NCBI GenBank assembly: GCA_017477025.1
Contig: JAFUYA010000019.1
Span: 1-64,000 of the forward strand
Source: Bacteroidales bacterium
GTDB taxonomy: Bacteria; Bacteroidota; Bacteroidia; Bacteroidales; P3
DNA: 64,000 nt
Direction: 5' to 3'
The translations under genes were made by a program, and so were the position numbers. Below, piece by piece: positions 39,771 to 45,495 of the stretch. Within the stretch, counting starts at the first letter, position 1. Each line of letters opens with the position of its first letter. A model generated the notes under the pieces. The model was not told the DNA's origin, did not search any database, and saw only the letters and a program-made list of their open reading frames with translations.

Positions 39771-39853
39771 AAGAAACTAAAATAAAAAAAGTCTCTACTC
39801 CAAAGAAGTAGAAACTAAAACTCATTTATTGTGAAACTGATTATTAACTCTCG

Positions 39854-39926
39854 TGACTAATCTGGGATTCGAACCCAGGACCCCATCCTTAAAAGGGATG
39901 TGCTCTACCTGCTGAGCTAATTAGTC
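39854..39926 (-). tRNA. tRNA-Lys (anticodon UUU)
   Basis: On the minus strand 73 bases fold as a full cloverleaf: acceptor GACTAAT/ATTAGTC, D-arm GCTC/GAGC, anticodon stem CATCC/GGATG with loop CTTTTAA (anticodon TTT), T-arm CTGGG/CCCAG with loop TTCGAAT, discriminator A. No CCA is encoded, as usual in this phylum. Confidence 0.97.
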
Positions 39927-40053: not shown

Positions 40054-43000
40054 TTAATTAATTATGACAAATCTCACCGTTTTTGAATTTTTTTTAGCAT
40101 CTGTTACTACTATTTTCAATTCATTTCTGCCTTTTTTCAATTTTTCATCTATTGTATATGTCAGAGTAGCCCTTCTGCCGTCAAACTCCATCAATATCCA
40201 TTCGTCATTTAAATATCCGTTATAAGTATTTATACCTGACAGATTATCGGATATTGTAACTTTGAGCGTTTTTTGTGTTTTCTTCAACTGCTTGCCTGAC
40301 TTGAAATTGACGGCTTTAACGACAGGTGCAATCGTATCAATCCATACGGCAAAATTTCCGAAATTTCCGGTTGTCGTCTCCACAAAACCGTTTTTTAATT
40401 GCCCGCCTACGCTACTCTTGTTTCCGTTTGCATTGATTTTCACTATCAAATATTTATCTTCAAGCCTGTTGTCAATTTTGTAGGGCTTAATTTTAATACT
40501 GAATTTGTTTTTTATCGGTTCCAATACGGAATGTAATTTGTGAATATTTGAAAAAGTTCCTTTTTGTGAAGAATATCTGAAATCAATGTCCTCATACAGA
40601 GAGTTCTTCGGGAAAAAGAATATACTACCGTCCGATGCTGTAAATTTGTTGTCATCGGTAAATGAAAAATGTTTCGATCCCGTTTTATCATATTCAGCAT
40701 TGAAAGCGGCGGAATCAAATACTCCTTTTATATAATATGTGTAAGAAAAACTATTCGCTTTCAAATCGGTGATTTTCCAACACACATTGTAAATACTGTC
40801 AGGTTTTACATTAAGAATTCCTTTGTTTCTGTACGTATTGAAAGGCAAATTGCCGTTGTCTGATTGTTTTGAACACAGCATCCTTTTATTTGTTTTGATA
40901 TATAGCGGATAATTGATAGTAGCATCAACAAATCCGTAATCGGCAAAAGAAAACGTCTCAATATGGTGAGAAAACAATAGGGTGTCATCAACAAATAATT
41001 CCGTTTTCCATGCACCGTTTTTCATAGAAGAACCGTTTGACGGATCATAAGCCAAAACTGAGAAATAGACATTTCCGAAACATTCTATAGTATCATAACA
41101 CGAATCCGCAGAAATATTCATCGGCTTAAAAACTTTGCTGATCGCTTTATTCTCTACGGAAGAGTTTTCCATAGGAGTAACAGCCGATGACACTATGTAA
41201 GGTTGTATTGTGTCCTGCACTTTGATTCCGAATAATAACGGATTAATCGGTTTTTCGGTTTTGGTATCGCGTATTTCAAAGTGTAGATGAGGTCCTGCCA
41301 CCATACCCGTTTCTCCGCTTAAAGCCAAAACCTGACCTTGTTTGACTTGAATCTCAGGCTTTGGAAATGTGTAATCAAAGGTATAACACTTGTGTTTGTA
41401 TTGATAATCTTTGACAAACTCCGCTATCTTGCCTTCATAGTTTTGCAGATGCATATAAACGGTTGTATAGCCGTTAGGATGAGTAACGTAAAGATTCTTA
41501 CCGCCTCCGTATGCTTGCACTTTAATTCTGGAAACATACCCGTCAGCAGGAGCAATTACTTCATAGCCGCACTTACCTTCGGTACGAATATCCAATCCCG
41601 AATGAAAATGCGAACCTCTCAACTCGGCGAAACTTCCTGCCAAGGTAAGAGGGATACGAAGAGGAGAAATAAAATAGTCTTGCGGGTATTTGTCATGCAA
41701 TTGTTCAATTTCTTCTTTCTCGTTTTCGATAATCTTGTCCTCTTGTGCCTTACCGTTGCAGGAAATCAGACTAAAAAACGTAACGAATATCAAAGGTATG
41801 ACTCTTACAATATTTTTCATTTGCCAATTATTTGTTCTAAAAAATATGATATAAATTATTACGCCGACAGACCATGCAACAGGTGCTCCCAACCATATTC
41901 CCATCGTACCGAAGTGCAAACTCATTGCGTACGATACGGGATAGCGTACAATCCAAAGAGATAACAGACTTATGATCATCGTTACCGTTGCTTTGCCTGC
42001 TCCTCGGAAAAAAGCCGTGTACATCATCTGCCAACAGAAAATAAACCAAAATATCCCCGATACTGAAAGATATTCATTGCCTATACTTATTACTTCTTGA
42101 TTATCGGTAAATAACCTCATCAGTTGAGTATTAAAAAAACAGAATATAATCATGGTCACAACGGACACCAATGCCATTATCTTCAATGAAGCATAAAAGC
42201 CCTTTTTCGCTCGTACGTACATTCCTGCTCCCAAATTGGTTCCAGTGAATGCAGTCAATGCCTGTGAGATATTAAGAACAAACAATAAGGCGATAGACTC
42301 TATACGCATGGCTGCAGAATATGCTGCCGTAGCATTAGTACCGAATTTGACAACAAGCCAAAGAATCAGAATCTGAGTTAAAGACACGATACTCTGTTGT
42401 ATTCCTGTCGGTATACCTATATTGATTATTTGTTTCAGATAAGATTTATTAAAAGCCAGATTTCTGAACGGCAACTTGACATATTCATGATTTCTACCCA
42501 AATAAACAAACAAACTGACAAAAGCCGCAAATTGAGAAATAAGAGAGGCCAATGCCGATGCTTCCACTCCCCAACGGAATACACCCAAAAAGAGATAAGA
42601 CAACAGAATATTGAGAATATTTGCCGGTATAAGAAACCAAAGTTGGGTTGTAGAGTCTCCCAATCCGCGGAGTATGCTGACGGCAGAATGAAATATAACG
42701 GAGAAAAACATTCCTGTCATATATATTCTGAAATAACCTACTGCAAACACCCTGACATTGTCGTCCATACCCAAAAGAGAAAAAAGAGGATTTGCAAATA
42801 TGATACTTATCAGACAGATTGCCAAACCCAAAAGAATAAAAAAGATATAGAACGTACTGATAATGGAACGTATTTCTTTATGTTGCCTGGCACCGAAGTA
42901 ATGCGATACCACAACCGAACCTCCTGTCCCGATACCTAACACCATTGAGGTAATAAAGAACACAACGGGATAACAACTTCCGACAGCAGCCAAAGCATTC

Positions 43001-43128
43001 ACCCCGAGATAATTTCCCACAAACGCACTATTGATAAGAGTGTATAATTGTTGGAAAAGATTACCGAGTATCAAAGGAATGCTGAACAGAAATATATTCT
43101 TACCTATGTATCCTTTGGTAAAATCCAT
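40054..43128 (-). CDS. MATE-family efflux transporter fused in frame to an M23 (LytM) peptidase
   Basis: 1024 residues. Residues 1 to about 436 are a MATE transporter with 12 hydrophobic segments (MDFTKGYIGKNIFLFSIPLI start, NLGAGMYVRAKK mid). From Met437 the chain reads as a complete M23 endopeptidase precursor: MKNIVRVIPLIFVTFFSLIS, then a lipobox-like Cys457 and a LytM domain with His and Asp in HFHSGLDIR near 505 and HLHFEIR near 605. The junction (RTNNWQ to MKNIVRV) has no stop. If translated through, the former signal peptide is a thirteenth membrane segment that puts the peptidase in the periplasm. Independent translation from the internal ATG (41818-41820) is the alternative; no stop codon separates the frames either way. 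Confidence 0.75.
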   Translation of the reverse strand: MDFTKGYIGKNIFLFSIPLILGNLFQQLYTLINSAFVGNYLGVNALAAVGSCYPVVFFITSMVLGIGTGGSVVVSHYFGARQHKEIRSIISTFYIFFILLGLAICLISIIFANPLFSLLGMDDNVRVFAVGYFRIYMTGMFFSVIFHSAVSILRGLGDSTTQLWFLIPANILNILLSYLFLGVFRWGVEASALASLISQFAAFVSLFVYLGRNHEYVKLPFRNLAFNKSYLKQIINIGIPTGIQQSIVSLTQILILWLVVKFGTNATAAYSAAMRIESIALLFVLNISQALTAFTGTNLGAGMYVRAKKGFYASLKIMALVSVVTMIIFCFFNTQLMRLFTDNQEVISIGNEYLSVSGIFWFIFCWQMMYTAFFRGAGKATVTMIISLLSLWIVRYPVSYAMSLHFGTMGIWLGAPVAWSVGVIIYIIFFRTNNWQMKNIVRVIPLIFVTFFSLISCNGKAQEDKIIENEKEEIEQLHDKYPQDYFISPLRIPLTLAGSFAELRGSHFHSGLDIRTEGKCGYEVIAPADGYVSRIKVQAYGGGKNLYVTHPNGYTTVYMHLQNYEGKIAEFVKDYQYKHKCYTFDYTFPKPEIQVKQGQVLALSGETGMVAGPHLHFEIRDTKTEKPINPLLFGIKVQDTIQPYIVSSAVTPMENSSVENKAISKVFKPMNISADSCYDTIECFGNVYFSVLAYDPSNGSSMKNGAWKTELFVDDTLLFSHHIETFSFADYGFVDATINYPLYIKTNKRMLCSKQSDNGNLPFNTYRNKGILNVKPDSIYNVCWKITDLKANSFSYTYYIKGVFDSAAFNAEYDKTGSKHFSFTDDNKFTASDGSIFFFPKNSLYEDIDFRYSSQKGTFSNIHKLHSVLEPIKNKFSIKIKPYKIDNRLEDKYLIVKINANGNKSSVGGQLKNGFVETTTGNFGNFAVWIDTIAPVVKAVNFKSGKQLKKTQKTLKVTISDNLSGINTYNGYLNDEWILMEFDGRRATLTYTIDEKLKKGRNELKIVVTDAKKNSKTVRFVIIN

Positions 43129-43218: not shown

Positions 43219-44022
43219 TTATATTGCGAAACAATAATTTGTAAAATCTCTCAACCTCATCTTGACTTTCAACTCCTCTTCAATGAAGGCCATGTGACCG
43301 CAATCAAGAATCATAACCTCACTGTCGGAAGGCAGGCAGGCTTGTGCCAAAAGAGTCTCCAAATCAATACGTATATCCTTCTTTCCCGTAACAAACAACA
43401 CCGGACAATTGCTTCGTTTCAGCACATCACACCTGTCTTTGCGATAAATCATACCTTTCTGTGCCGCAACAATGCCTTCTTTTTTGGTATTTAACGCTAT
43501 GGCTTTCAAATTTTCAATATCCGCCACATAACGAATACGATTGTCCAAGGCAAACAGGTTAGGAATAAAATCAACAATGAAACGTATTCTGTCATCATTG
43601 ATAAGTTCCACCGTACGTAATCTGTTTTGTTTCCCTTTTTCACTGTCAGCCAATGCTTGAGAGTCCATAAGGCAATATCCTTTCAACATTTCGGGGTACA
43701 TTTCGGCAAATGCCAAGGTTATCATACCTCCCATACTGTGTCCGCACATCACGCAATGCTTTATTTCCAACTTGTCCAACAGACTTTTAATCATTTCGGC
43801 CTGAAGTTCCATTGTAGAAATATCTTCAACGATTTCGCTTTCACCGTGTCCGATCAAATCAACGGCAATTACCCTGAAAGCGTTCATATATTCCAAAATA
43901 AAGTACTGCCAAACGTCAAGACTGTTCATATATCCGTGAAGCAGTACCAGTGTTTGCTCACCGTTACCTTCATCACGGTAATTTATTTTCTTACCTTTGA
44001 ATTCAAAAATACGATGTTTCAT
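43219..44022 (-). CDS. Alpha/beta-hydrolase-fold enzyme
   Basis: 267 residues from the ATG at 44022. Oxyanion region LLHGYMNSLDVW near 26-37, nucleophile elbow GHSMGG near 93-98, a later Asp in GKKDIRID near 215 and His in DCGHMAF near 243 make a complete triad. The substrate is not indicated; family members include esterases, thioesterases and dehalogenases. The longer start (44094) is rejected because a -7 element lies at 44053-44061. Confidence 0.9.
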   Translation of the reverse strand: MKHRIFEFKGKKINYRDEGNGEQTLVLLHGYMNSLDVWQYFILEYMNAFRVIAVDLIGHGESEIVEDISTMELQAEMIKSLLDKLEIKHCVMCGHSMGGMITLAFAEMYPEMLKGYCLMDSQALADSEKGKQNRLRTVELINDDRIRFIVDFIPNLFALDNRIRYVADIENLKAIALNTKKEGIVAAQKGMIYRKDRCDVLKRSNCPVLFVTGKKDIRIDLETLLAQACLPSDSEVMILDCGHMAFIEEELKVKMRLRDFTNYCFAI

Positions 44023-44052
44023 TCTATTTGTTACGGATATTGAAATTGAGGT

Positions 44053-44061
44053 GCAAAGATA
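44053..44061 (-). promoter_or_regulatory. -7 element of the alpha/beta hydrolase gene
   Basis: Minus-strand TATCTTTGC, 31 bases before the ATG at 44022; it decides the start choice. Confidence 0.55.
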
Positions 44062-44092
44062 GTAAAAAAATTCGTCAGTAAGCGGAAAATGC

Positions 44093-44174
44093 ATTGATTA
44101 CCGATAATCTTTTTTGTAATCAATGAGAATATCTTTGAAATATTAATAAATATTTTTGTAATCAGTGAAAACAT
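44093..44174. repeat. Direct repeat pair plus hairpin, intergenic
   Basis: Two 22-base copies (44111-44132 and 44153-44174) of TTTTTGTAATCA[A/G]TGA[G/A]AA[T/C]AT lie 42 bases apart. A 9-bp inverted repeat ATTGATTAC (44093-44101) with GTAATCAAT (44116-44124) overlaps the first copy. Confidence 0.6.
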
Positions 44175-44478: not shown

Positions 44479-45495
44479 CTATTTAACTTCCCGATTAAGA
44501 CTATATGCAATACTCTCCAATTGCATAAGCAGATCTCTTTTTGATTTCTTAGGAGAATAAAGAAAACAATCAATCATTACAAAATCTTTCGTTGCAGGAT
44601 TCTGAAAACAATAATTAACGAAAGGACCTCCCATAAAATCGCCGAATAAACGCCAAAGTCCTCTGGTTTCAATAGCCGTAATGTCGTTAAGTTTCACTGT
44701 ATCCGTATAAATTGAGAATCTTTCCTCCGTTCCCATGTAAGAATCCTTGGCAGGTCCCGGAATATTTTCCTTGGAAATTTGATTCCTGATGTCAATAATC
44801 TTTTCTTTATTCAACAAGTCCGCAGAAGTGAAAGGTTTTTTATATATCATTATATTGTAACTTTCATTCTTCGTTTCCTTTCTTATCCAAAAGAAGTCAT
44901 CTTTTTGCTTTGCCAGATAGTAATCCGAAGACATTACAAGCCCTAAACCGAATGTCTTCTTAATCTGTTCGGTAATTTTGATATTCTCATCTCTTTTGAA
45001 TGCATTAAATATTCTGTCGTGTTCGTTTTTGTAAAACTGCTTTTTTATTGTGCGGCTGAATTGCGAAAGAATACTGAATAAAGAATCCTGATTATCAACC
45101 ATCAATTTGTAAACTGCCTGCGGAAACACCCGTTTATTAATTTCGCTGTACATTTTATTGGGATTTCCTTTCTTGTAATCAATGATTACGATATTGCGGT
45201 GCTTTTGCAACATATCGGAATGAATAAATCCCTCAGGTTTCAGATGTACCACATCAAAAAGAGGCTCATCCTGATTCAAACCTTGCTGAGGTATCTCGAA
45301 ATTCTTACCTATTGAATCTTTTAATGCTCCTTTATACAAATCGTCATCACAAACGACAATCATTTCCAATGTTTTCCCGCCTGAAGACGGCAATCCCAAA
45401 GTCATTTTATCTTCCCGTGTCTGTTCCTTGTTACAGGAAAACAACAACATACCTGTGATAATAAAGAGAATCAGTGATTTATAATTGATATTCAT
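44479..45495 (-). CDS. DUF4837-family lipoprotein
   Basis: 338 residues. A lipobox FSC with Cys21 marks a lipoprotein. The body matches what I recognise as DUF4837: LEMIVVCDDDLYKGALKDSI near 42, FDVVHLKPEGF near 80, RNIVIIDYKKGNPN near 100, YYLAKQKDDFFWIRKET mid-protein, RGLWRLFGDFMGGPFVNYC near 285. Function unknown; the family is Bacteroidetes-specific. A -7 element lies at 45517-45525. Cellular side: periplasm-facing. Confidence 0.85.
   Translation of the reverse strand: MNINYKSLILFIITGMLLFSCNKEQTREDKMTLGLPSSGGKTLEMIVVCDDDLYKGALKDSIGKNFEIPQQGLNQDEPLFDVVHLKPEGFIHSDMLQKHRNIVIIDYKKGNPNKMYSEINKRVFPQAVYKLMVDNQDSLFSILSQFSRTIKKQFYKNEHDRIFNAFKRDENIKITEQIKKTFGLGLVMSSDYYLAKQKDDFFWIRKETKNESYNIMIYKKPFTSADLLNKEKIIDIRNQISKENIPGPAKDSYMGTEERFSIYTDTVKLNDITAIETRGLWRLFGDFMGGPFVNYCFQNPATKDFVMIDCFLYSPKKSKRDLLMQLESIAYSLNREVK

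Follow-up and report, generated by a model that had tools for sequence, protein, structure and literature searches.

A MATE transporter and an M23 peptidase encoded in a single frame in Bacteroidales: a probable precursor of two proteins

What is made from an open reading frame in which a complete membrane transporter is followed, without any stop codon, by a complete secreted peptidase: one machine, two proteins that part after synthesis, or the product of a sequencing error? This question is raised by a gene at positions 40054-43128 (-) of the window, that is, of the whole stretch of 64,000 nucleotides from a Bacteroidales bacterium that was analysed. The gene consists of 1024 open codons plus a stop, lies on a single contig and is recognised by two Pfam profiles, MatE (E 3.8e-58) and Peptidase_M23 (E 2.3e-18), which bears out the description in the first-pass annotation of one frame joining a full MATE transporter to a full M23 peptidase.

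That annotation had also proposed to look for the same junction in other genomes, and it was found in 15 of them. The fused frame is free of stops in eight other members of the same genus, g1 (G001, G002, G005, G006, G007, G011, G012 and G013), and in five of genus g4 (G016, G027, G186, G187 and G188), and two further copies are broken only by a run of 22 N bases (G004) or by the end of a contig (G185). In total, the in-frame fusion is present in 16 independently assembled genomes belonging to two related genera of gut-type Bacteroidales. Given that the open frame recurs in these relatives while the identity to the window's protein falls to 46-48%, the fusion is genuine and old. It was not found elsewhere in the family (190 genomes searched), nor among 393 genomes sampled from the order, where the two halves, whenever found, are separate genes; likewise, a scan of genome contigs returned only unfused homologues, and a literature search for a MATE–M23 fusion found nothing usable. 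In another family of the order, homologues of the MATE and the M23 are encoded as divergent neighbours (G473, C114:441-3616).

The MATE half (residues 1-436, 41821..43128, minus strand) comprises 12 transmembrane (TM) helices and belongs to its family by homology, with 196 bits for MatE and 237 bits for TIGR00797 (cut-off 147), and with solved MATE structures as its best fold matches in the PDB, which also match it in sequence. It resembles PfMATE, DinF-BH and VcmN, of the MATE/MOP transporters, in sequence and fold over its whole length, but it departs from them in bearing Asn instead of an acidic residue in TM1 and in continuing into a 13th segment and then a further protein. The acidic residue of TM1 serves proton coupling in PfMATE and VcmN, whereas Asn33 (43030-43032) takes this place in the 16 fusions (Asp in PfMATE). 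This makes it unsafe to speak of a drug/proton antiporter, as had been done at first, although membership in the MATE family is not weakened by it. Nor is the Asn a result of the fusion, since unfused relatives in genera g2 and g5 carry it too; in other families of the order, the residue is Asp. The idea of the MATE half as a substitute for MurJ was considered and rejected. The MurJ profile (PF03023) did not match the fusion gene, and its best match in the same genome is a different gene that falls below the cut-off; moreover, a strong match is missing in fused and unfused genomes alike among 29 Bacteroidales, so that the lack of a strong match is unlinked to the fusion. The scores in those genomes reach 47.5 bits at best, with most under 35, and probably stem from other MOP transporters.

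As for the second half, its catalytic LytM/M23 domain (residues about 480-636, 41221..41691, minus strand) exceeds the cut-off of the family profile, adopts the LytM fold (Z about 16 to the LytM domains of DipM, EnvC and ShyA) and retains the metal ligands H509, D513, H560, H614 and H616 (HxxxD and HxH motifs), which are invariant in 40 homologues. It is followed by a ZU5-like beta domain (residues about 817-932, 40333..40680), whose match to the ankyrin ZU5 (Z 11.8 over 114 residues, rmsd 2.4) denotes a resemblance of fold only, and by a C-terminal beta-sandwich domain (residues about 933-1024, 40057..40332) with a pLDDT of 90 or more over most of its length; modelled alone, the mature M23 part reaches a pLDDT of 91.5. 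The fold and the ligands are shared with the LytM domain of DipM, with ShyA and with the Csd family, but in the fusion the M23 domain precedes the ZU5-like and beta-sandwich domains and is made behind a transporter. In the full-length AlphaFold model, the MATE helices are succeeded by a short helix (440-455) and then by the beta-rich periplasmic part; since confidence is low at 433-512, the model is silent on the packing between the halves.

The junction itself begins with the native C-terminal tail of the MATE (residues 431-442, RTNNWQMKNIVR, including Met437; 41803..41838, minus strand), which aligns with the tails of stand-alone transporters. In other families, these end in basic sequences such as GKWKTKTVVK, GKWRTKGVVK and GKWKTKGVVK, and the equivalent tails of the fusions (SKWYSSKIVKT, GKWTKSKIVKI, NRWTKAKIIKT and, in the window, NNWQMKNIVRV) lead straight into the core of the M23 signal. 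Judging from this alignment, residues 431-442 now act as the putative positively charged n-region of that signal. The hydrophobic core of the former signal peptide (residues 443-456, 41761..41802, minus strand), overlapping the low-confidence model helix 440-455, would constitute TM13, and the earlier proposals that the signal had turned into a 13th membrane-inserting segment and that the M23 half is delivered to the periplasm are judged right, the former as a prediction and the latter as an inferred export.

Immediately behind this core is the c-region C-N-G-K-A|Q (residues 457-462, 41743..41760, minus strand), where signal peptidase I is predicted to cut before Gln462. In 14 aligned fusions, this Gln is the sole invariant column between P416 and F486, across 69 positions. 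On the tree of the 16 fusions, parsimony assigns no change to it and two to the -1 position, where only Ala and Ser occur, in comparison with 5-11 changes for most other columns from -22 to +4 (anchored on Gln462). Between the last charged residue and the Gln, the distance is 16-22 residues, most often 19, a spacing shared by unfused homologues; those listed across Bacteroidota have a small residue and then Gln after the signal. The mature linker that leads to the HFHSG motif varies between 26 and 52 residues. Almost the whole junction has been renewed in sequence, while the geometry of a signal peptide has been kept. As a background, among 127 other hydrophobic segments located inside proteins of neighbouring genes, 4 have [AS]Q at the right distance, a fifth match being left out of this figure because it is itself a fusion.

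Such an n-h-c architecture with a small -1 residue and Gln at +1 is the signature of the Q-rule, by which about 71% of the signal peptidase I substrates of Bacteroidetes expose an N-terminal Gln (PMC5837995, PMC10653852) that glutaminyl cyclase converts into pyroglutamate (PMC5837995; PMC10653852), although pyroglutamate formation on inner-membrane proteins was left untested (PMC5837995). Both enzymes are encoded in the genome, the cyclase with an E of 2e-84 to 6qro. The fusion shares with Q-rule substrates the hydrophobic core, the small -1 residue, the Gln at +1 and the presence of a cyclase in the genome; however, the rule has been described for N-terminal signal peptides, and here the signal is internal, behind 12 TM helices.

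From these features, the fusion is likely to be a precursor of two proteins, a polyprotein, split by signal peptidase I. The 12-helix MATE half would insert in the membrane with its tail in the cytoplasm, where this basic tail and the former signal peptide of the M23 would together serve as an internal signal (TM13) and launch the Sec-dependent export of the M23 half. On the periplasmic side, the bond Ala461|Gln462 would then be cut by signal peptidase I in keeping with the Q-rule, the retention of the site pointing to a separation after translocation. The products would be a MATE that carries one additional helix at its C-terminus and a free, soluble peptidoglycan endopeptidase of the LytM type, whose N-terminal Gln glutaminyl cyclase would cyclise. 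The practical effect would be the 1:1 co-production of both proteins, and it is this, along with export, cleavage and cyclisation, that we infer rather than a tethered machine. There is a precedent in FbcH of Bradyrhizobium, the cytochrome b/c1 precursor, in which a polytopic protein is fused to a secreted partner and cut by signal peptidase. The MATE–M23 protein resembles it in the in-frame join through the signal sequence of the partner and in the putative separation by signal peptidase, and adds a Bacteroidetes Q-rule site; nevertheless, the halves of FbcH share one complex (bc1), unlike a MATE and a peptidoglycan enzyme, for which no shared complex is known. Some caveats apply to the polyprotein reading: the 16 fusions come from one or few events and are not independent; cleavage is rarer when the signal comes behind a polytopic N-terminal half than when it stands at the N-terminus; and in the sub-clade of the window a lipobox (LISC457) could allow signal peptidase II to cut instead, leaving a lipoprotein.

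Could the two halves owe their continuity to a mistake or be translated separately? The genome of the window is a draft (2.39 Mb in 156 contigs), and hence the loss of a stop codon at the junction, which the first-pass annotation had wished to exclude, was considered; the same open frame in 13 other gap-free genomes refutes an assembly or sequencing error, to which we concede practically no probability. A tight gene pair, in which the M23 would be translated separately from a start of its own within the frame, for example Met437, is in turn very improbable, even though the window and some relatives have an ATG at the junction. Met437, formerly taken for the start of the M23, is present in some fusions only and belongs to the MATE tail (W-K/R-x-K-x-V-V-K). 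In addition, two fusions (L009 and L010) have no ATG, GTG or TTG whatsoever between TM12 and the hydrophobic core, and these codons are absent from the junction in four others (L008, L012, L055 and L056); since start codons are missing there, one polypeptide must be made in such fusions, and the MATE reading, devoid of a stop codon, would give the long product anyway. A separate translation of the M23 cannot, on these alignments, be the general rule.

With a single polypeptide, there are still other fates to be weighed against cleavage by signal peptidase I. TM13 might be left uncut, anchoring the LytM enzyme beside the MATE and coupling wall cleavage to transport, as in the permanent tie between both activities that had been suggested at first. 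This is favoured by the single frame, which in several fusions offers no second start, by a hydrophobic segment long enough for membrane insertion and by the existence of complexes between transporters and LytM proteins, FtsEX–EnvC structures being among the fold matches. In FtsEX–EnvC, a membrane complex of transporter type works with a LytM-domain protein, but it is of the ABC type, encoded by separate genes and non-covalent, and the role of the EnvC LytM is that of an activator; by contrast, the M23 of the fusion keeps all its metal ligands. Besides, Gln at +1 and Ala/Ser at -1, for which a pure anchor has no need, are better conserved than any other position of the junction, their spacing from the last positive charge is constant, the linker is of variable length and the fusion has been split again in G009 and G010 without apparent penalty, all of which makes a permanent tether unlikely. 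No more can be granted to a partly or wholly uncleaved protein, or to a regulated cleavage, by which the MATE would deliver and control a wall endopeptidase at the membrane; were it so, peptidoglycan cutting might be coupled, for instance, to the passage of a wall-derived or lipid-linked substrate through the transporter. Finally, signal peptidase II might cut before Cys457 and produce a lipid-anchored M23 in the sub-clade of the window. The lipoprotein-type signal noticed at the outset does exist there, as L-[IF]-[SA]-C is found in G000, G005, G002, G001 and G013 (L-I-S-C457 in the window), that is, with the Cys in five of the six members of the sub-clade. Nonetheless, the sixth (G011) has Tyr in place of Cys, and most of the remaining fusions carry still other residues there, so the conserved lipobox Cys of bacterial lipoproteins does not extend to the fusions as a whole, while Ala/Ser-Gln is retained in all of them. 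Signal peptidase II may therefore act in some species, but the loss of the Cys precludes it as the conserved mechanism, and as an explanation it is still less plausible than an uncleaved protein.

The gene order gives an idea of how the fusion arose. An alpha/beta hydrolase gene (43219..44094, minus strand) lies directly upstream of it, and the order in the fused genomes is hydrolase and then MATE–M23, whereas in the unfused genera g10 and g12 the hydrolase is followed directly by the M23, overlapping or abutting it. Further along the window, a DUF4837 gene with a lipoprotein-like start (44479-45495, minus strand) lies upstream of the hydrolase, and the other end of the fusion gene is followed by a tRNA-Lys(TTT) (39853-39926, minus strand) and then by the gene of a protein with a tRNA-binding domain (PF01588, 39385-39825). 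The simplest history would be that a MATE gene was inserted between the hydrolase and the M23, replacing the start and the n-region of the M23 signal, and that the fusion was later split in one sub-clade (G003, G009 and G010). These unfused genomes are nested inside the fused g1 in the rpoB and rpoB+rpoC trees, the MATE and M23 trees agree with it, and monophyly of the fused g1 is rejected (AU p 0.03). In G009 and G010, the hydrolase is followed by a MATE with its own stop, and the M23 is found elsewhere with its own signal peptide. Such a later split implies that the fusion is dispensable. A remnant of the signal peptide was looked for after the stop of the G009 MATE and none was seen; its tail, SKIVKS, was discarded as such a remnant, given that stand-alone MATEs of other families have the same type of tail. 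The unfused MATE of G010 (C14:142177-143481) has a branch of 0.80, versus about 0.2-0.3 in its sisters, which has the look of relaxation or change following the split. Regarding the number of origins, g1 and g4 are together on one side of a branch in the rpoB+rpoC tree (support 80), whereas g12 is grouped preferentially with g1 in the M23 tree (AU p 0.0485 against g1+g4); on these trees, the fusion may have been gained once and then lost in g12, or gained twice. The RpoC frames have about 1560 codons in G000, G001, G002, G005 and G013, compared with about 1440-1490 in relatives, which suggests a lineage-specific insertion.

To our knowledge, bacteria very rarely make processed polyproteins that combine a polytopic membrane protein with a secreted enzyme. 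For annotators, this locus is a warning that a conserved "fusion" need not imply a joint function, and the MATE–M23 gene gives no evidence of a machine in which transporter and peptidase work jointly. If its product is cleaved, it would be a rare bacterial polyprotein with an internal Q-rule site. The site is conserved, the origin of the fusion can be traced to an insertion between two genes, and the fission in G003, G009 and G010 reversed it in nature; together, these properties make the locus a natural experiment on whether signal peptides function internally and whether the Q-rule reaches internal sites.
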